Assembly (NCBI GenBank): GCA_028289125.1
Contig: JAQGGZ010000004.1
Coordinates: 1-64,000, forward strand
Direction of reading: 5' to 3'
Source of the DNA: Candidatus Saccharimonadota bacterium
Lineage (GTDB): Bacteria > Patescibacteriota > Saccharimonadia > Saccharimonadales > UBA4665
DNA length: 64,000 nt
Below the pieces are notes generated by a model, which saw nothing but the letters and a program-made list of their open reading frames with translations, had not been told where the DNA came from and made no database searches. Positions within the stretch are counted from its first letter, which is position 1, and the number at the start of each line of letters is the position of its first letter. This document shows positions 14,841 through 25,238 of the stretch, in pieces. The position numbers and the translations under genes were made by a program.

Positions 14841-17132
14841 CTACAGCGTCGGCGGCAGTGATGTAATCGCGTCGTATGGCTGTTGACCGGATTCGGTTGA
14901 AATGCCGCTGTTAGCCAGCCATAGTTCCGGAGTGTAAACAAATGACTCGGCCGCAGCACGGGGTGTGGCACCGACCGGTATGAGGTTGCCGTAGGTACGA
15001 CCAAGCCGGATATTCTCGGCAGCGACCGCTCCATAAAACGTCAACGGTCGGTTACAGGTAACGTAGGTGCTAATGCCTGTGAAACCAGTACTACACGTGA
15101 ATACGGTTCCCTTGCCTGCCACGCCCTGGGCTTGCGCTATATAGATGCCGTGCAGCTCGGTGACATTTGAATCGATGTACAGGTTACCTCTGACGATCAA
15201 CGTCAAGCGAGGAATGTTATTTGGATCAGTGTACGAACCGTAGAGGATGTTGGTGTTTATGTAGGCATTGCCGTCAATGACAAGGGTAATCTGACGGCCA
15301 TCGCCGTTGATCGTAGCATTGCCGCCAATACCGATTATCACGTTACCGGTGTACTTCTTGTAGTCCCCGTCGGCGAACCCTTCAAGGTTGGCTTTCGTAA
15401 TCAATGCACCACCAGTGACCGTCGCCTGCGCATTAGCCTTCGTGTAGTAGTCAGGCATACATGGCAACGACGTGTTGCCCAGTCGGCCGCTGGTGGCAAC
15501 ATTTGAAAATGTCAGGTTGTTCCCCGCCCCGGCAACACCCGGTGGCGTGGCTGTCGAACTGCTGCCATCGATCGAATTGACTGCCGACGCAAAGCCGATG
15601 ATGTCCCCGATAGCAAGCGCCGCCAACTGGCTGCCGGCGCCGTAGTAAGGACCGCCGTTATTCCAGCCCTTGATACCGGCACCGATGGTGTCCGTACAAG
15701 TCGTTCCCTGCGTAAACCCGGCTCCGGCGATGATGTCGCCTCCGACATTACTGAAGTAAGGGTAGAAAGCTGCATCAAAGCTCGTGCCACCACCACAGAT
15801 CCTGTTGCCGATCGCACCGTTGTTACCGAAGTAAACCCTGTATTGGCCGGCAACGGTTATCGCGGTAGCCGGAACGGTCACGGTCGCACCGACCAGGTTG
15901 CCGTTGACATCGACTGACGTGGCGATGCCGGTCTGTTGGAACACCTGTGTCTCGGTCGGGCCGACAAGCCGGACGACACGAACAGTATAATTGACACCGT
16001 TATTACGGGCCGACGTTGCGGCTCTCGTATCCTGATACTTGATAGAACTGGCAATCGTGAAGCTCTGGCCGGGCATGACTTGACTCGGGGTCAGTACGGC
16101 CGGATTCACACATTGACCCGAAGGGGGTGTGATCGTGACACAGCTATGATTACTTTCTCCTCCTCCTTGGCTGAAATCTCTAACCACGGCTCGAGGATCG
16201 TATGCCGTCCAGGAGCATACCTTACCGGCATTCACCTGTGACGCAGGTATAGGAACATCTTGGATTCCATAGCCCGGCGCATTCCCTCCATTCCCCACGT
16301 TAACGAATGAATTGGTTGACGGCCACGCGGCGACGCCACCGCTTCCGAACTGCGTACGATCCCCAAACTGGAATGAAGCCGTATTCGGCCCATTATTGTG
16401 GATATTGTAGTAGAAGCGAGCGGTCTCACCAGGATATACGTTTGTATTGGGCGTAGAGGACCAGGAAGAAAGATTCCAGTTAACCGTAGGAATGTCTATG
16501 AGCCCGGCATGCCACCCGACCGGGTTACCACACTCGATACGGAGTCCGTACAGCACCTGGGCGGTATTGTACGGGTTTAGGAATATGATGGATGGTGCCG
16601 TTTCGTTATAGCCGAGGGTGTAATAGGCGTCGTCGTTCTGCGGTCCTTGGTAAAAGGAGTTCGTGTAATACGTGTAGTTGGTATTCCAGTTGATCAGCCC
16701 TTTTCGTTCGTAATCAAAGACGCGGTTACGCCACTCATTGAAGCGGTTACAGGCCTCATACTTATTGATGCCACCAGGGTTTGAATTGTCTGGCGCGACT
16801 CCTAACATCGTCAGGACGATGAAGGCCGCACCCGTCGCGTGCTGGTTGTTAGGGAACGCTGCACAGTTAAGGTAGCTCCCGATCATGTTGGTGAACTGCG
16901 TCGCGTTACTGACGTAAATACCACCAGGTATGACGTCACCACCGCCCTGGTTGTAGTGACCCCAATCAAAGTATCCGTGCCAACACTGAGTACCGGTCTC
17001 GCCGACACAGTCGTTGGCCGACACGGCGAAAGCCGGTTTGGTGAAGCCGATGACCGCCACGGCCATAACGGCGATAGCCAGCATGCTCACCATAATGACA
17101 TGCAACCGGGTGTGGAGGCCTACGCGTCTCAT
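14841..17132 (-). CDS. Large exported protein upstream of the pilus operon
   Basis: 763 residues with a clear Sec signal peptide (helix about 13-33, cleavage after AFA). Residues about 40-220 are rich in Trp, Tyr and Asn. Residues about 350-450 resemble Ig-like or beta-sandwich material (VLTPSQVMPGQSFTIASSIK). Residues about 590-720 form a repetitive beta-helix-like stretch (GNATINGDGRQITLVIDGNA, LTLIVRGNLYIDSNV). No membrane anchor at the C-terminus. Not recognised as a named family. It is translationally coupled to the upstream TPR protein and stands directly before pilM, so a role as secreted or pilus-associated adhesin is plausible but unproven. Confidence 0.6.
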   Translation of the reverse strand: MRRVGLHTRLHVIMVSMLAIAVMAVAVIGFTKPAFAVSANDCVGETGTQCWHGYFDWGHYNQGGGDVIPGGIYVSNATQFTNMIGSYLNCAAFPNNQHATGAAFIVLTMLGVAPDNSNPGGINKYEACNRFNEWRNRVFDYERKGLINWNTNYTYYTNSFYQGPQNDDAYYTLGYNETAPSIIFLNPYNTAQVLYGLRIECGNPVGWHAGLIDIPTVNWNLSSWSSTPNTNVYPGETARFYYNIHNNGPNTASFQFGDRTQFGSGGVAAWPSTNSFVNVGNGGNAPGYGIQDVPIPASQVNAGKVCSWTAYDPRAVVRDFSQGGGESNHSCVTITPPSGQCVNPAVLTPSQVMPGQSFTIASSIKYQDTRAATSARNNGVNYTVRVVRLVGPTETQVFQQTGIATSVDVNGNLVGATVTVPATAITVAGQYRVYFGNNGAIGNRICGGGTSFDAAFYPYFSNVGGDIIAGAGFTQGTTCTDTIGAGIKGWNNGGPYYGAGSQLAALAIGDIIGFASAVNSIDGSSSTATPPGVAGAGNNLTFSNVATSGRLGNTSLPCMPDYYTKANAQATVTGGALITKANLEGFADGDYKKYTGNVIIGIGGNATINGDGRQITLVIDGNAYINTNILYGSYTDPNNIPRLTLIVRGNLYIDSNVTELHGIYIAQAQGVAGKGTVFTCSTGFTGISTYVTCNRPLTFYGAVAAENIRLGRTYGNLIPVGATPRAAAESFVYTPELWLANSGISTESGQQPYDAITSLPPTL

Positions 17133-17704
17133 AATTTCTTGTTTACCGCGTCAATGTATTTCTGATACTGCCGTATGTTTGATTCACGTTGCGGGCCGGT
17201 GACTTTTGATTCGATATCTTTGGCTTTCTGATAATAACTGAGTGCGAGCTGGTTCTGCCCGAGTGCTTCAGCCGAGAGGCCGGCGTACGCCGCCTGGGAC
17301 GAACGCAGACCATACTTCTTGTCTATCGCATTATACGTATCAAGCGCTTTCTGGTAACTTCCCTGCGAGTAATAGACGATGGCACGTTGACCGTCGTTAT
17401 CCTGGTTAGAGGGCGCCTCATCAAGCACTTTCAGGGCTTCATCATATTTTTTTATAGCGATCAGGCCGTTAACCTTTTCTGTTGGAGAAAAGGCGTGCTG
17501 TTCTACGGTGGGCACCGTCCGGACGGCGGACTTTGAAGGTGCCGACTTATCGTCCTTATTGGTAACGTACCATATTACGCCCCCGGCAATCAGGGCGACA
17601 ACTAAGAGACCGAGCACGCCGATCATGACTTTCTTACGGGCAATCCGGAAGCGGTGTTTGCTTCCACCACTACCTTGTACCACCTTGGTTTCTGTGTCCG
17701 CCAT
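17129..17704 (-). CDS. Membrane-anchored TPR protein
   Basis: 191 residues: cytoplasmic basic segment, one transmembrane helix (about 26-48), then helical TPR-type repeats (about 80-185, e.g. GLIAIKKYDEALKVLDEAP and YYSQGSYQKALDTYNAI). The repeats probably face outward and scaffold protein contacts. Its stop overlaps the start of the large exported protein (ATGA), so the two act together. PilF/PilW-type TPR pilotins exist in other pilus systems, but this one has no lipobox and cannot be equated with them. Confidence 0.7.
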   Translation of the reverse strand: MADTETKVVQGSGGSKHRFRIARKKVMIGVLGLLVVALIAGGVIWYVTNKDDKSAPSKSAVRTVPTVEQHAFSPTEKVNGLIAIKKYDEALKVLDEAPSNQDNDGQRAIVYYSQGSYQKALDTYNAIDKKYGLRSSQAAYAGLSAEALGQNQLALSYYQKAKDIESKVTGPQRESNIRQYQKYIDAVNKKL

Positions 17705-17720: not shown

Positions 17721-17801
17721 ACAAAGCTTTAGCTTAATGACTACACCTTTTACAGCTTTCTTGTAAAACGAAACGAGTTCATCTTGAAAGTAATGAAAGG
17801 T

Positions 17802-17924
17802 GTAGCGACATGTCAGATTGCGGGTTCCCGAATAAACGGAAACGGACATGGGCTACGCCGGAGGAGCGAGGGAGCGGACACATACCTGGAGGGTATGCTC
17901 ATCGGGTGATGAGTGCGTGTCCGC
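17802..17924. ncRNA. Candidate structured RNA element, two domains
   Basis: No ORF is supported. Domain 1: GTAGC(17802)/GCTAC(17856) stacked on CATGTC/GACATG encloses a CGGG-TT-CCCG hairpin. Domain 2: a perfect stem GCGGACAC (17874-17881) with GTGTCCGC (17917-17924) closes a three-way junction of ATACC/GGTAT and CTCATC/GATGAG hairpins. Neither has a U-tract, so it is not a simple terminator for the sortase gene ending at 17934. The left cassette repeat (17807-17821) is part of domain 1. Strand and function are unknown. Confidence 0.35.
17807..17821 (+). repeat. Left 15-bp inverted repeat flanking the sortase cassette
   Basis: GACATGTCAGATTGC; its exact reverse complement lies at 19844-19858, so both copies read inward. 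A direct 6-mer AAGGTG lies four bases outside this copy. Confidence 0.6.
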
Positions 17925-17933
17925 ATCCCCTGC

Positions 17934-18698
17934 TCAGCCGTTGGCTGGAACTTGCTCCGCGAAAACGACGGTGTTCTCTTCGCTGGCATGGTAATCGCCG
18001 TTGAAGGTCCCGCTGCAGGTCATGATGACCAGATCAGCCGTCGTCGGAGCGTTTTGCAGGACTTGCCGCAGGGCGTTGGGGTCGTATTTATCGACACCTG
18101 CGACTACGGAGATCACCTGGAATCTCATGACGTTTCCGCCATCATCTTCCAAAGCGACATCCGCTCCAGCCTGCAACGTTCCAAGGTCATTGAAGACCCC
18201 GTATCCTCCACCGACTTGCGTGTGTCCCAGAATGACCGGCAGTTCGCCGTCAGGACCACGCTCGCCCGGCTTGACCTCAGACCACCAGGTGGTCGTGTAG
18301 AGATCATCCGGGACACCGAACATCGGAACCCTCTGTTTGAGGAATTCGTTCCACTGCAGTTCGGTCGGCTTCGGCGCCATGGTCGTGTTCACCCCGATGG
18401 ACGGAATGAACAGATGGGTCGGGTCAATCGACATGACGACCGGTGTTGGAGGCACCGTCGTCGCGACAGGCTGACTAGAGGACGACGCCGGGGGCGCTGT
18501 CGTAGCAGGGGCTGTCACAGCCGGCTCAGAAGTTGGCGATGAGGCCACTTCTTCGGGTACCGGTGCGGTGACGGCCGTCATGCGATCGTTGGTCTGGTCA
18601 GTGATGACCCAGTACCTCCAACCGAAGACGACCGCCACCAGCACCAGCACGAGTCCGACGATCAGACGGACGAACCGCCTACTTGCCGGCCTTCGCAC
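17934..18698 (-). CDS. Sortase (class E/F-like), catalytic Arg not found
   Basis: 254 residues: N-terminal transmembrane helix (about 11-29), Ser/Thr/Pro/Ala-rich linker (about 40-90), then a sortase beta-barrel. Catalytic His is in VILGHTQVGG and catalytic Cys in LVIMTCSGTF. Sortases cleave a sorting motif near the C-terminus of surface proteins and attach them to the cell wall or to another protein. The Arg normally found one strand after the Cys (for example in HYRDN of class F) is not present: the equivalent region reads DYHASEENTVVF and no Arg follows the Cys. GTG start lies inside the 3' end of the upstream surface-protein gene (20-base overlap), so the pair is translationally coupled. 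Confidence 0.8.
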   Translation of the reverse strand: MRRPASRRFVRLIVGLVLVLVAVVFGWRYWVITDQTNDRMTAVTAPVPEEVASSPTSEPAVTAPATTAPPASSSSQPVATTVPPTPVVMSIDPTHLFIPSIGVNTTMAPKPTELQWNEFLKQRVPMFGVPDDLYTTTWWSEVKPGERGPDGELPVILGHTQVGGGYGVFNDLGTLQAGADVALEDDGGNVMRFQVISVVAGVDKYDPNALRQVLQNAPTTADLVIMTCSGTFNGDYHASEENTVVFAEQVPANG

Positions 18699-19650
18699 GA
18701 CGCACCTGAGGAGCAGCGAGCAGGAGCAGACCGAGCACCGAGAGGACCACGCCGGAGGCGAGGAACGAGGTGTTGTCGGTCAGGCTCGTGCCCTGTCCAC
18801 TGGTGCCGGCTCCGACCGGGTAGCCACTTCCGCGAGGAACCACGGGAGAAGCGACGACCGGCGTGTGGCTGGCCGGAGGGTTGACGACCGGCGGGTTCTC
18901 GACGGGCGGGTTGCCGACGGGCGGGTTGACGACCGGCGGGTTGCCGACGGGCGGGTTCTCGACCGGCGGGTTCACCACGGGCGGGACCCAGGTGCAACCG
19001 TCGTCCGGCGTCGTGTAGCCGTCACCCGGCGAAGGGATCGTGACGCACGGCTCCGGCTCGTCGGGTGCGGTGGTGCAGTGGTCGTCCGACGTGTAGTGCT
19101 GACCGGCCGGGAGGGGCTCGATCGGCGTGCACGGCGGCTCGATCGGCGGCATCCAGGTGCATCCGTCGTCCGGCGTCGTGTAGCCATCACCCGGGGAGGG
19201 GATCTGGGTGCACGGCTCCGGCTCGTCAGGAACGAAGCACGGGTTGTCGAAGGTGACCGAGTTGCTGACCGTGCTGTCGCTGGTGCGCTCCAGGGTGACG
19301 GTGATCTGCGCCGGGGTGAGGATCGGAGCGGCGCTCTGCCACGTGATCTCACCGGTGTCGGCGTAGATGTTCTGCGTCTCCGTGGTGGTCCCTTCGTAGT
19401 AGAAGGTTCCCTGCGGGGACGTCAGCCTGTGCGACTTGCCGATGGCGACGTTGCTGAACGACACAGCCACGGAGACGTTTCCACCCGTGCAGGACGACGA
19501 ACTGACGGCGATGGTCTCGCCGGAAGTGGTCGCCTGAGCGGACGGCACGAACATGGTGGCCAGACCCAGGAAGAGCACTCCGACGCCACTGGCGCGGAGC
19601 ATCCTGGATCCGCGTCGCCGCTTGGCGACGAGTGGGACGTTGCTGGACAT
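18679..19650 (-). CDS. Exported, membrane/cell-wall anchored proline-rich surface protein (putative sortase substrate)
   Basis: 323 residues. A basic N-terminus and signal peptide (about 15-40, cleavage near AQA) are followed by a beta-rich domain (about 45-140), then two copies of a Cys-containing module (IPSPGDGYTTPDDGCTW) separated by PLPAGQHYTSDDHC. Seven NPPVx repeats come next, and the protein ends in a C-terminal hydrophobic helix (FLASGVVLSVLGLLLLA) followed by a positive tail (RRAKAGK), as in sortase substrates. No canonical LPxTG is seen before the helix; YPVGAG and SLTDN are the only candidates. GGAGG four bases before ATG 19650 sets the start; a longer reading from 19719 is less likely. 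Probably displayed at the cell surface by the adjacent sortase. Confidence 0.7.
   Translation of the reverse strand: MSSNVPLVAKRRRGSRMLRASGVGVLFLGLATMFVPSAQATTSGETIAVSSSSCTGGNVSVAVSFSNVAIGKSHRLTSPQGTFYYEGTTTETQNIYADTGEITWQSAAPILTPAQITVTLERTSDSTVSNSVTFDNPCFVPDEPEPCTQIPSPGDGYTTPDDGCTWMPPIEPPCTPIEPLPAGQHYTSDDHCTTAPDEPEPCVTIPSPGDGYTTPDDGCTWVPPVVNPPVENPPVGNPPVVNPPVGNPPVENPPVVNPPASHTPVVASPVVPRGSGYPVGAGTSGQGTSLTDNTSFLASGVVLSVLGLLLLAAPQVRRAKAGK
18874..18986 (-). repeat. Tandem 15-bp repeats encoding NPPVx
   Basis: Seven near-identical 15-bp units encode a five-residue Asn-Pro-Pro-Val-x repeat, a rigid extended stalk typical of surface proteins. The repeats are in frame and vary only at the fifth residue (E, G or V). 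Confidence 0.85.
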
Positions 19651-19751
19651 GTGACCTCCAAAGGTCAACGGTTCGGCACGGTTGCCGAAGTGGGGTGTTA
19701 CAGGGATGAGAAACTGCATCGTAGGGCGACCTGAAAGGTCGGTAATCCGCG

Positions 19752-19820
19752 GTTTGCGGAGCTACGGTCAATCCACTACCCTCTCCTAGGTGGTGATAAA
19801 CTGGTCGTGGCCCCGCAAAC
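19752..19820 (-). promoter_or_regulatory. Structured 5' leader of the surface-protein gene
   Basis: In the predicted mRNA leader, GTTTGCGG (19820-19813 on the minus strand) pairs perfectly with CCGCAAAC (19759-19752), closing a loop with further pairing around CCAC/GTGG. A second hairpin GACCT-TTC-AGGTC follows near 19730. With about 180 nt of leader, this could be a cis-regulatory RNA. No known riboswitch family is recognised. Confidence 0.35.
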
Positions 19821-19828
19821 ATTTCTCA

Positions 19829-19860
19829 AACGTAGCATATTTTGCAATCTGACATGTCAA
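19829..19860 (-). promoter_or_regulatory. Promoter of the surface-protein/sortase pair
   Basis: Minus strand has consensus -35 TTGACA (19860-19855). Two -10 candidates follow: TATGCT after 15 bases, or extended TGCTACGTT, whose hexamer TACGTT follows after 20. The -35 overlaps the right inverted repeat. Unlike most promoters here it has a good -35 and a long leader, in keeping with foreign origin. Confidence 0.5.
19844..19858 (-). repeat. Right 15-bp inverted repeat flanking the sortase cassette
   Basis: Reverse complement of 17807-17821, exact over 15 bases, followed immediately outside by AAGGTG. Confidence 0.6.
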
Positions 19861-20047: not shown

Positions 20048-20190
20048 ATGAGTTTATCCATCGGTACAGATATTGCGTAACACAACAACCTTTTGAACTA
20101 AAGCTGACTATGCCACCGACTGACCGTGGCAGACGTGGCTACTCCGACGAATATGTCGCTAAACTGGTAAAAGAGCTGCTTGAAGCATAA
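20048..20190 (+). pseudogene. Possible degraded small gene
   Basis: A TACAAT box (20035-20040) lies seven bases before ATG 20048, as at real genes here, but that frame stops after 10 codons. In another frame coding-like sequence continues to 20190, including 26 codons from ATG 20110 (MPPTDRGRRGYSDEYVAKLV, then KELLEA). It could be a frameshifted remnant or two tiny peptides. The rest of 19.86-20.24 kb shows nothing recognisable. Confidence 0.25.
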
Positions 20191-20236
20191 GAGCTTTGAC
20201 ATTTCGCAAGGATTAGTGCGTAGGTGATTTCGCTAG

Positions 20237-20242
20237 TATAAT
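20237..20242 (+). promoter_or_regulatory. -10 box of the Shedu gene
   Basis: TATAAT, perfect hexamer. Six bases downstream, where other genes here have ATG, there is an in-frame ATA (20249). Confidence 0.6.
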
Positions 20243-20314
20243 GACGCTATAGCGAACCCCATTAACGTCTCCTCTGTTTTCATCGGTGTATCCGAATGCG
20301 ACCCTATTGAACTC

Positions 20315-21286
20315 ATGAAATCCGAGGACGACACTCGTCGCCTAGTCTTTCTACCTATAATCCACGATAATGCCACCAAGAATGGTTCGGTCAAAGGCAG
20401 CTTTGTCTACCAGCGCAAGCGAAAAGCCGATGAGTGGGAGAAAGTCACCAACAGTGCGGAGTCCCTTAGTAAATTGAAAGCTGGTGAAGGCTTCCGCCTA
20501 GACCTGACAACCGACGCCGTTACCAAGCTAGTTAGCGGGCTAATGGACGTCAATGAGATTGCCGACGCTGTTAAAAAAGGCCGTACCAACACCACTTTTG
20601 TACCAAGTGCAAAGGAGTTGGCACCAATACTCGAACAACTGCTCGATAGCCTTGATGACGACACCCTGCTTGACGAGCTTTTTAAGCTCAGTAAGGACAA
20701 CGCCTTACGCTTTAACGACCTAGTGCTCAATGCCCGGATACGGTCTGCACTCGCCTATTGGGATGCTCATAAAGAAGACTCCACAGAAGAAAATTGGCAA
20801 AACTTCTTTAGTGGTAGGCCGTGGATATTATCGCTGATTTGTGCCGAGCCAATCATTGTATACCAGCAGAAAATGTATACAGGTGGTACGAACGCTTCGG
20901 GAAAGGGTGGTAAGACGGTTGATTTTGGCCTAATCAACAAACAGACAAGCAACACTGCTCTGCTCGAAATTAAGACACCTATGACACCGTTACTTGCCAG
21001 TGAGTATCGCTCAATCTACCCACCGTCAAATGAGCTTTCGGGTTCGGTAACTCAGGTACAGAATTACAAGTACAACCTACTAAAACATCTTACTACGCTG
21101 CAAGATGGTTTAGAGCCTTTTGAGGCGGTGAACGTTGCCACCTATGTTGTAGCTGGCAACTGTGAAAAGCTAACTAACTCTACTCAAAAACGGTCACTTG
21201 AACTTTACAGGCGCAACCTTAGTAGCACGGTTGTCTTAGCCTACGATGAAGTGTTTGAGCGACTCCGAATTTTATTAAACCGTTAG
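20315..21286 (+). CDS. Shedu-family (DUF4263) defence nuclease
   Basis: 323 residues from the first ATG. Residues about 165-310 carry the Shedu/DUF4263 pattern: NWQNFFSGRPWIL, then DFGLINKQ with the catalytic-type Asp, ALLEIKTP (E-x-K), a Tyr/Ser-rich stretch, and LSGSVTQVQNYKYNLL with the conserved Gln. This is a PD-(D/E)xK-type nuclease core. Shedu is a known single-gene anti-phage system. The frame stays open upstream to just after TATAAT at 20237, encoding plausible protein (for example VSSVFIGVSECDPIEL), but without ATG, GTG or TTG; translation may begin upstream at a non-standard codon (ATA 20249). Convergent with the next gene, one base between stops. Confidence 0.8.
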   Translation: MKSEDDTRRLVFLPIIHDNATKNGSVKGSFVYQRKRKADEWEKVTNSAESLSKLKAGEGFRLDLTTDAVTKLVSGLMDVNEIADAVKKGRTNTTFVPSAKELAPILEQLLDSLDDDTLLDELFKLSKDNALRFNDLVLNARIRSALAYWDAHKEDSTEENWQNFFSGRPWILSLICAEPIIVYQQKMYTGGTNASGKGGKTVDFGLINKQTSNTALLEIKTPMTPLLASEYRSIYPPSNELSGSVTQVQNYKYNLLKHLTTLQDGLEPFEAVNVATYVVAGNCEKLTNSTQKRSLELYRRNLSSTVVLAYDEVFERLRILLNR

Positions 21287-21287
21287 C

Positions 21288-22964
21288 CTAAGCTACTTTG
21301 CGCAACGCAATGTCTTCTACTTCTTGCTTATCAAGTTTGCCGCCTTCTACTCGAACACGTTCAGCCGCTAAACGAGGACGGCCTACCAGTGCTTCATCAA
21401 ATGACGTAGGCTGCCCTGAATAATGTACGCCAAGTTCGGTACTGTGCATTTGAATGCCGCCAGGTGCACCAAATATGTCAACATTACTCTGTACACCAGA
21501 GGCAATCAGGTCCTTGCCCAACTGACTAATAACTGATTCCGTACCTATTTGGAACTTTTCGCCGTTATCATCAATGTCGCCAGATTTTACTTCTGTAGCA
21601 GCATGACAAGCTGAAAATATAATCTTTTTACGACCCTCATCACGACTATCATCATCAATACCTTGGCTCGGCTTCATATAAGTCTCTACCAACCGTGCCA
21701 TGCCTTTCATGCCGTGCATAGAATAGCCATAGTCGCCAGGATCGAGGTCGCCACTACCATTAGCCATTGCAACCAGCTTACGCCCAGCAACCATAGCAAT
21801 ATCATGCCGTTCCTGACCATTCGCCTTTTCACGTACATCAGATACCATAAACTGACCAGGGGCACTGTGTGAAGCTAAAATCAGTGTGGAGGGTTGAACT
21901 CCTGCTTTACGCAAAGTTACCATTCGGCGATAAATATCGTCCATACCATTAATTTCAAAGAATACAGTACGCTTGCTACTGTCATCAAAGTTAGCAGCAA
22001 CATTGCGAAGTACGCCATTATGGTCGCCAAATCGGTTTATCATCACTGCCGTAACATCATGTTGGGCTAACCTTTCGGCAACCTCGGTAGGGTTAGCAGC
22101 TAGAGCTTCCATACGTTCCAACTGCTCAGTAGTGTATGCTTCTAGACCGTGAATACCGCTAAAGGCCGCTAATTGACGGATACGATCCACGCCAAAGCTG
22201 TTAATTTTATTGATAATGTCAATTATGTCAGTATTCTCGGCATCATTTTTCCGTGATGCACTAAAAACGTAATCGGATGCCTCGGTGGCTGGCATACCTG
22301 TAGCAACTTCGATGGCACTACTCATCCATTTACGAGCAGCTTCCTGTGTTTGATGCCATTTAACATCCATATCCCTGATTGCTTCTTGCTCGTTGAAGCG
22401 AATCCACTTAATGGGATTCGGCTGCAAGAGAGCGGAGCGGAGCTTATCACTGTATTCATCGCCACCTACACCTAATAAATCAGTTAGAGAATCAGTGCCG
22501 TAAGCTACTTTGAGAGCATTTAATTCTGGCGTAAGGACACTCGACTGCTTAGTATTACCCTCTTTTTCTATATCAGTCAGCATCGCAGTATGCAGCGAAC
22601 CACTAGGTGATTCAGCGGCGAAGCCTCGCCCTACTACATCCTCACCTAAGTTATAAATCATTTGTTGCAAGGGGCGGCCATGCGGCTCACGCCCTGTAAT
22701 AGTGCGGCCTAATTCCCGCTCTTTATCGTACAAGTCAAAATATCGTGATATGTAACTTGCATCGGCTTCACCAGACTGAAGCTGGGGCTTAATACTGCGT
22801 AGAGGGGCTATATCTTCACTGTTAAACCATTCAGGATACTGACCCGTTCCAGCCAAGCTGCTCATTTCTGCTTCAAGCCGTTCAAGACGCTGTTGCCATA
22901 ATTCAAAACCTGCCTCTAAAGGGGCTACTGCTTGTAATTCGGCTGTTGGTACTTCGTGTGGCAT
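21288..22964 (-). CDS. Putative caspase/CHAT-like (clan CD) cysteine protease-fold protein
   Basis: 558 residues, no signal peptide or membrane helix. Residues about 1-290 are helical and acidic. The C-terminal half shows the clan CD layout: a hydrophobic strand ending in His (STLILASHSAPGQF, near 365), then a strand ending in Cys (KKIIFSACHAATEV, near 453), then a helix and another strand (VDIFGAPGGIQMH). His and Cys would form the catalytic dyad. Caspase- and CHAT-like proteases occur in bacterial abortive-infection and toxin systems. The -10 box TAAAAT lies six bases before the ATG. Family assignment is by motif reading only; an unrelated hypothetical is possible. Confidence 0.5.
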   Translation of the reverse strand: MPHEVPTAELQAVAPLEAGFELWQQRLERLEAEMSSLAGTGQYPEWFNSEDIAPLRSIKPQLQSGEADASYISRYFDLYDKERELGRTITGREPHGRPLQQMIYNLGEDVVGRGFAAESPSGSLHTAMLTDIEKEGNTKQSSVLTPELNALKVAYGTDSLTDLLGVGGDEYSDKLRSALLQPNPIKWIRFNEQEAIRDMDVKWHQTQEAARKWMSSAIEVATGMPATEASDYVFSASRKNDAENTDIIDIINKINSFGVDRIRQLAAFSGIHGLEAYTTEQLERMEALAANPTEVAERLAQHDVTAVMINRFGDHNGVLRNVAANFDDSSKRTVFFEINGMDDIYRRMVTLRKAGVQPSTLILASHSAPGQFMVSDVREKANGQERHDIAMVAGRKLVAMANGSGDLDPGDYGYSMHGMKGMARLVETYMKPSQGIDDDSRDEGRKKIIFSACHAATEVKSGDIDDNGEKFQIGTESVISQLGKDLIASGVQSNVDIFGAPGGIQMHSTELGVHYSGQPTSFDEALVGRPRLAAERVRVEGGKLDKQEVEDIALRKVA

Positions 22965-22970
22965 ATTTTT

Positions 22971-22976
22971 ATTTTA
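22971..22976 (-). promoter_or_regulatory. -10 box of the caspase-like gene
   Basis: Minus strand TAAAAT, six bases before ATG 22964; leaderless start predicted. Between here and 23203 no gene or clear site is seen. Confidence 0.5.
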
Positions 22977-23203
22977 ACGCTTTACACAAATAATAGTAGC
23001 AAGTTATTGCCTTTTTGTCAAGTATTTACCTCTGTATGTATTATGCCGTTCACTCAAACGCCAATTCTTATCAAGAGTATCATCGGATATGATTTTTTCC
23101 AGGATTTTGACCCCTGAACGCCATTTATCTGACACTGAACACTTAAAATCATACACCAAGCAAGCAGTTAAGCTAGGGATATGTACGAAAATTAAACGTT
23201 ACT

Positions 23204-23356
23204 TTGTTTGCATTGTCTTGTGCTAATAAACACAATGAGCAGCCCGAAGAACCAACCGTTGAATATGTCGTTGAGGAAGACGAATTCAACATCTTAGAGG
23301 GCGTGTTCGATGAACTATTTGAACAGATTGAGCAAGAAATAAGGAGTAAAACATAA
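23204..23356 (+). CDS. Possible small acidic ORF or gene remnant
   Basis: 50 codons from a TTG. The C-terminal part (EEDEFNILEGVFDELFEQIE) is acidic, amphipathic and looks coding. There is no ATG, no -10 box at the usual distance and no ribosome-binding site, so it may be the surviving 3' end of a truncated gene. It lies 47 bases before the excisionase-like gene. Confidence 0.3.
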   Translation: MFALSCANKHNEQPEEPTVEYVVEEDEFNILEGVFDELFEQIEQEIRSKT

Positions 23357-23387
23357 GGAGTAGTATTGATATTTACTAATAAATACT

Positions 23388-23393
23388 TATAAT
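23388..23393 (+). promoter_or_regulatory. -10 box of the excisionase-recombinase operon
   Basis: TATAAT, ten bases before ATG 23404. It overlaps the ATG at 23392, making that start unlikely. Confidence 0.55.
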
Positions 23394-23403
23394 GGAAATT
23401 ACT

Positions 23404-23589
23404 ATGATTGGATATAAATTTTATACGGTTCAGGAAGTAGCAGAAATGTTACAGGTACACTGGCAAAGCGTACTAACCTACATAAAAAACGGTGAGCTGG
23501 AAGCCATTAAGTTGGGTAAAGGCTACCGCATAAGCGAGACGGCTCTACAAAAATTTATAGCCGACCACTCGACGAGGAAAAAGAAATGA
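23404..23589 (+). CDS. Excisionase-like helix-turn-helix protein
   Basis: 61 residues, a winged-helix MerR/HTH_17 domain: FYTVQEVAEMLQVHWQSVLT is the HTH and LEAIKLGKGYRISETAL the wing, as in the excisionase (Xis) family. It likely acts as recombination directionality factor or repressor for the adjacent recombinase, whose ATG overlaps its stop (ATGA). An alternative start at 23392 would add four residues but lies within the -10 box. Confidence 0.8.
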   Translation: MIGYKFYTVQEVAEMLQVHWQSVLTYIKNGELEAIKLGKGYRISETALQKFIADHSTRKKK

Positions 23590-25238
23590 AAAAGGCAGCA
23601 ATTTATATGCGTGTCAGTACGGCACATCAGGAAGAAGAACAAACAATCGGAAATCAAAAAATGGAAATCATGGAGCGTGTCGGTAAAGACACCAACGTGA
23701 CACTAATAACAGATTATGAGTACAAGGACGAGGGTTGGAGTGGAGCGATTATCGAACGCCCTGACCTTGACCGTATGCGTTCTGACGCTCGTGAGGGTAA
23801 GTTTGAAGTCTTGTACGTCTATGACCGTGGACGCTTGTCTCGTAAGTTCGTACACCAAGAAATCATCTTGGAAGAACTGCGTGAATGCGGAATTGAGTGC
23901 ATAAGCCTCCATGACATTAACGGCCAAACGACCGAAGAAGTGCTTATGGGTAGCGTCATGGGTATCTTCCATGAGTACGAGCGTGTCAAAATCACGGAGC
24001 GTATGCGTATCGGTAAGGTGCGTAAAGTCCGTGAGAACAAAAAACTGCTTGGCTATAACCCTAAGTATGGTTACGACTACTACCGCCGCATAAAAGCGGG
24101 TCCTGACGCACGGGACGGGTACTTTGAAATCAACAAGCAACAGGCAAAAGTCGTCAAGCAGATATTTGAGTGGATCGCCGCAGGAGTATCTAAGCACGAA
24201 GTGAAACGTAAATTATTTCAAATGGGTATTGCCCCACCCAAGGGCAAACGTGACCAGTGGAGTGGAGGGACATTAGACCGCATGGTGTGTGACACTACCT
24301 ACATGGGTGACCACTACTACAACAAGAGCGAGAGTGTTCCAACCAAGAACCCTCGCAATCCAGAACAAAAGTACCGTAAGGTTACTAAAGGCAGCCGTAA
24401 GCACCGTCCTAAAGAAGAATGGTTTCATGTTGCGGTGCCCGCTATCGTTAGCACTGACCTGTTTCATAAGGTTCAAGTGCAGCTTGAGAAGAACAAGCGT
24501 ACAAACACTCGTAATAACAGCGTAAACAGTTACCTTGTAGGGGGTTTAATCGAGTGTGTCTGCGGCAAAGCTCGTACTGGTGATCCAGTAAGTAATGGCA
24601 GCTCGTATTATCGTTGCACGGATCGTTTGAGCAAGTTCCCTCTTGAGCGTGAATGTCATGAACATGGTATCAACGTACCAGTGTTCGACGCACTGGTATG
24701 GCGTAACATCAAAGAGTTGCTTCTTAACCCTCAATTGGTAGCTGCACAGGCTCAACGTCGCAAAGCCACTTCCCCACTGCAAAACCAGTTAGACGCACTT
24801 CACAAGTCGCTCAAGAAGCTAGACGATGAGCAGTACCGCTATGATAAAGCCTACGGTCAGAACGTAATGTCCGAACGCCGCTATAAGACTGTAATGAATG
24901 AGCTAAACGATAAGCGTGAAGCAATCGTGTCTGAAATCAACGCCCTAGAGGACGAAATGGTCAATCAAAAGCCCATAACCGTTGAACAATACTTTGACGG
25001 AACGATAAAACGTATCGAAAACTTGAGTTTTACAGAGAAGAAAGCGATAATTAAGAAAGTAATCACTAAGATTGTAGCCACAAAACAAGAGATTAGCATT
25101 TGGGGACGTATACCGTTGCTGGCTACACCTACTAGTGAAACTATAAATAATAATGAAAGTTCAATTTATGCAAACTATCTGGAAAATGAACATGAGGTTG
25201 GGTTAAATGTTAAGCATTGGCATAGTCGGCCTTCCTAA
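23586..25238 (+). CDS. Large serine recombinase (integrase)
   Basis: 550 residues. N-terminal resolvase domain (about 1-150) with nucleophile Ser in IYMRVSTAHQ, then RGRLSRK and MGSVMGIFHEYERVKITERM. The recombinase domain (about 165-270) includes WIAAGVSKHEVKRKLFQMGI. A zinc-ribbon region (about 310-365) holds ECVCGKAR, YYRCTD and ECHEHG cysteines, followed by a coiled-coil (about 390-460). It would integrate or excise the element by att recombination. The last 10 codons lie in the ychF coding region in another frame, which marks the junction of element and host gene. Typical length for a phage or integrative-element serine integrase. Confidence 0.92.
   Translation: MKKAAIYMRVSTAHQEEEQTIGNQKMEIMERVGKDTNVTLITDYEYKDEGWSGAIIERPDLDRMRSDAREGKFEVLYVYDRGRLSRKFVHQEIILEELRECGIECISLHDINGQTTEEVLMGSVMGIFHEYERVKITERMRIGKVRKVRENKKLLGYNPKYGYDYYRRIKAGPDARDGYFEINKQQAKVVKQIFEWIAAGVSKHEVKRKLFQMGIAPPKGKRDQWSGGTLDRMVCDTTYMGDHYYNKSESVPTKNPRNPEQKYRKVTKGSRKHRPKEEWFHVAVPAIVSTDLFHKVQVQLEKNKRTNTRNNSVNSYLVGGLIECVCGKARTGDPVSNGSSYYRCTDRLSKFPLERECHEHGINVPVFDALVWRNIKELLLNPQLVAAQAQRRKATSPLQNQLDALHKSLKKLDDEQYRYDKAYGQNVMSERRYKTVMNELNDKREAIVSEINALEDEMVNQKPITVEQYFDGTIKRIENLSFTEKKAIIKKVITKIVATKQEISIWGRIPLLATPTSETINNNESSIYANYLENEHEVGLNVKHWHSRPS

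Follow-up and report, generated by a model that had tools for sequence, protein, structure and literature searches.

A two-gene sortase operon lies between a type IV pilus gene cluster and ychF

The window analyzed here is a 64-kb stretch of DNA from an 874-kb genome that appears to be a metagenome-type draft in 11 contigs. Within it, a block of 2.05 kb (positions 17807 to 19858) carries two genes, both on the reverse strand. The upstream gene (18679 to 19650) has an ATG start at 19650, preceded by the Shine-Dalgarno sequence GGAGG, and encodes a secreted, substrate-like protein of 323 amino acids. The downstream gene (17934 to 18698) has a GTG start, overlaps the upstream gene by 20 bp, and encodes a sortase that matches Pfam PF04203 (43.5 bits, above the gathering score of 26.6; E = 3.3e-11). 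The catalytic His and Cys motifs of the sortase, LGHT and MTCSG, align with those of all homologues. The upstream protein consists, in order, of a signal sequence, Cys-containing repeats (CTxIPSPGDGYTTPDDGCTW), a Pro-rich stalk (PPVxNPPV), the motif GYPVGAG, a hydrophobic segment, and the basic tail QVRRAKAGK. A hydrophobicity script and inspection of the sequence identified all three features by which sortase substrates are recognized, namely, a signal sequence, a hydrophobic segment near the C terminus, and a basic tail; no canonical LPXTG-type motif precedes the C-terminal segment. There is no transposase or recombinase inside the block, and antisense open reading frames match no family. 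An earlier note on this DNA had proposed a GC-rich cassette of a sortase and its substrate with no transposase of its own, and the gene content agrees with that description. A PDB sequence search returned no match, and a single-sequence structure model was discarded as unusable (pLDDT, 45.5).

Structured RNA is predicted at both ends of the transcript. A strong hairpin over and past the sortase stop codon (17859 to 17940, reverse strand) probably acts as a transcription terminator, although it lacks a U tract; the fold of 17800 to 17940 on the reverse strand has an energy of −65.7 kcal/mol (z, −6.7). The 5′ leader of the operon (19651 to 19843, reverse strand) is also structured (z, −4.0). It matched no riboswitch or other known RNA in Rfam even at an E value of 5, and it may represent a new actinobacterial RNA element.

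The flanking genes are native. To the left lies a TPR-type gene (17129 to 17704, reverse strand), which is outside the cassette and ends a type IV pilus cluster that includes PilB, PilM, and others. To the right lie the native ychF promoter and the original ychF start (MSLSIG…; 20048 to 20063, forward strand), which comparison with a related genome, G001, identified as displaced by a neighboring island. The cassette sits in a variable region between the pilus cluster and ychF. One relative (G042) has the TPR gene and ychF adjoining with nothing between them, and in others, MFS-like transporters or unrelated genes occupy the position; none of the relatives has the cassette sortase. The cassette is thus absent from relatives, but the flanks of G042 could not be aligned base by base with the window, and our search for a close strain found no genome of the same genus.

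The GC content of the block is 0.632, ~4 standard deviations above that of other 2,052-bp stretches of the window (mean, 0.551; standard deviation, 0.020; maximum, 0.594), and no other 2-kb stretch of the window is as GC-rich. Maximum-likelihood GC change points were placed at 17837 and 19816, the left one with a broad interval (17793 to 18493). The excess lies mainly in the substrate gene (GC, 0.674). Third-position GC and codon usage, which the earlier note had proposed as checks for both proteins, gave a divided outcome: GC3 is foreign for the substrate gene (0.87, versus a native range of 0.57 to 0.77) and native for the sortase gene (0.70), and codon scores of both genes fall inside the native range. 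Overall, cassette GC (0.60 to 0.67) is intermediate, with actinobacterial relatives at 0.69 to 0.77. The case for transfer is carried by the sortase tree and a shared insertion, described below, and not by GC.

The sortase groups with actinobacterial enzymes

We compared the window sortase with sortases of actinobacteria, a phylum label assigned via the named Actinoplanes locus L084, and with those of CPR-type bacteria, by which we mean relatives of the window's genome. Among 397 sampled actinobacterial genomes, the closest sortase was 42% identical (E = 8e-31), and 150 order-mates of the genome that encodes it yielded seven more (E = 2.5e-33 to 2.7e-25). The CPR-type relatives have small genomes (0.4 to 1.6 Mb among those listed), a size that fits the earlier note's reading of the window's lineage as CPR. 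These genomes are rich in sortases, the best of which was 30 to 31% identical to the window enzyme (E of ~1e-13). The nearest sortase found is only ~42% identical, which limits what can be inferred about the donor and the date of transfer. When 84,980 species were scanned with the window sortase, the single match was a distant one in Actinoplanes. Phages, viral contigs, and plasmids contained no close sortase or substrate; plasmid DNA matches were short and fell where the substrate gene has its GC-rich repeats (most were from Streptomyces, with one Arthrobacter and one Halorussus).

A tree of 74 sortases placed the window enzyme within a clade that otherwise contains only actinobacterial sequences (L086 and L132 to L138; support, 100/100), with L086 as its sister (99/92). 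Forcing it into the main CPR clade of 30 members cost 42.7 log units, and this placement was rejected (p-AU, 0.001); the enzyme did not nest within CPR homologues. An additional stretch that ends in [FY]GVP occurs in all nine clade members and in none of the 71 other sequences. Moreover, the Arg position of CPR sortases (ERxVV) is Asn in the window sortase (ENTVV) and throughout its actinobacterial clade. The remaining three sortases of this genome (L152 to L154) fall in the CPR clade. They resemble the window enzyme in having a Sortase domain and neighbors with C-terminal sorting-type signals, but they differ in clade, in lacking the insertion, in the PDTG-type signals that end nearby proteins, and in being scattered over separate loci. 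We conclude that horizontal acquisition of an actinobacterial-type sortase with its partner protein, an origin already suspected in the earlier note, is well supported, because the tree, the AU test, and the shared insertion all point to an actinobacterial origin of the sortase.

A second small set of CPR-type sortases (L034, L035, L037, L054, and L079) lies beside actinobacterial class F (100/94), apart from the main CPR clade, and possibly reflects an older transfer.

The sortase and an upstream stalk protein are paired in actinobacteria

In seven of the eight actinobacterial members of the clade (L142 to L148), a secreted, Pro-rich stalk protein is encoded directly upstream of the sortase, as in the window; the eighth (L131) has instead a large protein of 1,334 amino acids with a membrane tail. 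The seven stalk proteins end in GYAPTG, a hydrophobic segment, and a basic tail (RR). The window pair shares with them the order of substrate and then sortase, the stalk, the C-terminal hydrophobic segment and basic tail, and a motif containing GY. The seven differ in the motif itself (GYAPTG, versus GYPVGAG in the window), in a chromosomal context without the repeats described below, and in a GC content of 0.75 to 0.77. Comparison by eye and by alignment suggests that GYPVGAG may correspond to GYAPTG, although this is suggestive only. The N-terminal parts of the actinobacterial substrates do not resemble the window protein, so the transferred unit is the arrangement of a sortase plus partner and not a recognizable effector.

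The best family match of the window sortase is the class F model NCBIfam NF033748, at 64.9 bits, which is below the curated cutoff of 166. The five sister sequences tested were also below the cutoff, scoring 55 to 85 bits, compared with 190 bits for an ordinary class F sortase in the same set. With class F sortases the window enzyme shares this best match, the PF04203 fold family, the His and Cys motifs, and an actinobacterial lineage; its own group differs by the extra insertion and by the dedicated upstream substrate. The clade is a distinct class-F-like sub-clade. Class F sortases of actinobacteria include the P. acnes enzyme and SrtF1 to SrtF4 of Actinoplanes missouriensis, and their physiological role has been reported as unknown (PMC13251363). 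A sub-clade that scores below the class F cutoff and has its substrate next door would allow these poorly understood enzymes to be tested with a known partner.

Inverted repeats flank the operon

The block is bounded by exact, inward-facing copies of a 15-bp inverted repeat, GACATGTCAGATTGC, at 17807 to 17821 on the forward strand and 19844 to 19858 on the reverse strand. A search allowing up to two mismatches found just these two copies in the 874-kb genome. The 15-mer has no match in the 92 other family genomes searched, whether at conserved sites without the cassette or elsewhere, and the cassette is single copy, with no second cassette with these ends in its own genome or in those 92. Viral contigs gave 20 single matches to the 15-mer, never paired, which are uninformative.

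The GACATGTCAGATTGC pair is the sole non-hairpin exact inverted repeat of at least 15 bp within 3 kb in the window. Such repeats are expected by chance 0.17 to 0.20 times per 64 kb, and the repeat alone is therefore unremarkable and proves little. The earlier argument that a 15-base match in this neighborhood is improbable thus fails for the repeat taken by itself; the improbable feature is its coincidence with the edges of the block. Both arms lie within ~40 bp of the best GC change points, and the chance expectation that each end of the GC block has an arm no more than 60 bp away is ~1.5e-5, for a feature picked post hoc. It is quite likely that the repeats are the insertion boundaries.

The hexamer AAGGTG, which had been taken for a target duplication outside both ends, was ruled out in that role. 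Its right copy abuts the repeat (at 19859), but its left copy (17797 to 17802) is separated from the repeat by 4 bp (TAGC). We looked for a flanking duplication of any length at both ends of the full 15-mer and found none. There is a flanking duplication only if GACATGTC, the outermost 8 bp of the repeat, is itself the duplicated target; the candidate left and right copies lie at 17807 to 17814 and 19851 to 19858, its only two occurrences in the window. Because GACATGTC is its own reverse complement, two readings of the ends fit equally well, and the palindrome makes them indistinguishable: a 15-bp repeat without duplication, or 7-bp terminal repeats (AGATTGC…GCAATCT) bordered by an 8-bp direct duplication. 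Such ends would be expected both from a transposase that duplicates 8 bp and from a site-specific recombinase whose core is 8 bp long. Judged from the sequence, movement in trans of a segment that has 7-bp ends and an 8-bp duplication or core is plausible. Under that model, the empty site would read AAGGTGTAGC-GACATGTC-AAGGTGCAC. If the segment excises as a circle, the circular junction would read GCAATCTGACATGTCAGATTGC. Like nonautonomous transposable units (MITE-like or passenger units with an 8-bp target duplication), the cassette lacks a transposase, has short inverted repeats at its termini, and may carry a direct duplication of 8 bp. It differs from them in being single copy, in that no related autonomous element was found, and, should the duplication be real, in having a terminal repeat of just 7 bp.

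Probable origin and possible function of the operon

We consider it fairly likely that 17807 to 19858 is a self-contained two-gene operon that was acquired horizontally from an actinobacterial lineage, inserted between the type IV pilus cluster and ychF with ends of the GACATGTC type, and has a dedicated role in wall anchoring. The C-terminal hydrophobic segment and basic tail would hold the secreted Pro-rich protein in the membrane; the partner sortase would then cut this protein at a non-LPXTG motif near GYPVGAG and join the product to the cell wall. This anchoring may run in parallel with that by the genome's own sortases, with their PDTG neighbors, and with a specificity of its own, and we suggest from the motifs and gene order that the operon is probably an orthogonal surface-anchoring system. 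Family knowledge and the gene pairing are likewise consistent with a second, separately coded wall-anchoring function. The ends are most plausibly what a recombinase or transposase supplied in trans left behind, namely, an 8-bp GACATGTC duplication or core plus 7-bp AGATTGC repeats. If this reading is correct, a single horizontal transfer from actinobacteria gave a bacterium of very small genome size an entire wall-decorating system with a code of its own.

Actinobacteria have been reported as hosts of cultivated Saccharibacteria. The operon might be a trans-mobilized display cassette, a sortase with its own substrate and short recombination ends, that passes between actinobacteria and the small bacteria living on them as parasites or episymbionts, such that the small cell would show a host-type wall-anchored protein under a sorting code orthogonal to its own. 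We regard this broader scenario as improbable.

Alternatively, the operon may have been acquired horizontally, for example by homologous or illegitimate recombination, with its true edges at other points of the AT-rich intergenic DNA, the inverted repeat being a coincidence. The chance frequency of such repeats given above allows for this, the change-point intervals are broad, and in a gapped extension of the terminal repeats the two ends were no more alike than shuffles past 15 bp; however, a chance repeat would also have to fall as close to both change points as the observed arms do, and we consider this origin rather unlikely. Perfect inverted repeats with a palindromic core would also suit an invertible, phase-variable cassette, in which a recombinase acting on the 15-bp repeats flips the operon and alters its promoter context. 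Indeed, a TTGACA hexamer spans the right repeat (TT outside, GACA inside) and would be lost on inversion. However, a promoter scan across the right repeat found no acceptable sigma-70-type pair, no invertase gene adjoins the block, and the serine recombinase nearby has another site, at ychF, making inversion very unlikely.

A chimera of assembly or binning, with actinobacterial DNA misjoined into a CPR-type contig, might be suspected from the metagenome-type draft and from a cassette that is unique among the relatives searched. Native genes on both sides in one contig (the pilus cluster, and the ychF promoter and start) would require two independent misjoins, however, and the intermediate GC content of the cassette does not match that of its actinobacterial relatives; a chimera is highly improbable. 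Finally, only 205 bp separate the right repeat from the left end of a large-serine-recombinase island (20064 to 25222), of which the cassette could be cargo. This is scarcely credible, since comparison with G001 fixes the left end of the island at the displaced ychF start (20048 to 20065), with the cassette outside, and the two have opposite compositions (0.447 for the island, versus 0.632). With the island ends fixed in this way, we ruled out the cassette as part of the island; the analysis separates two adjacent insertions that might be taken for one.

The neighboring serine-recombinase island

The island splits the 5′ end of ychF, which has its displaced start (MSLSIG) at 20048 and a new start codon, supplied by the island, at 25207. 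At this site G001 has a related island, whose recombinase is 93% identical and whose cargo differs, and G039 has a related island at the same ychF site with a recombinase 38% identical. In the window, the island carries a Shedu defense protein, SduA (20315 to 21286; PADLOC, 2.6e-66). Beside it is a 558-amino-acid protein (21288 to 22964) that matches no Pfam or PADLOC family and whose HSAPG and FSACHA motifs recall caspase-like peptidases. A 61-amino-acid HTH_17 protein (23404 to 23589), encoded directly before the recombinase, is likely an excisionase or directionality factor. Among the papers searched, none names both Patescibacteria and a large serine recombinase. At three other loci (L021, L028, and L029), ychF starts with an MLSIG-like sequence after a short upstream frame, and not with MSLSIG, which is possibly the scar of an old serine-recombinase insertion.
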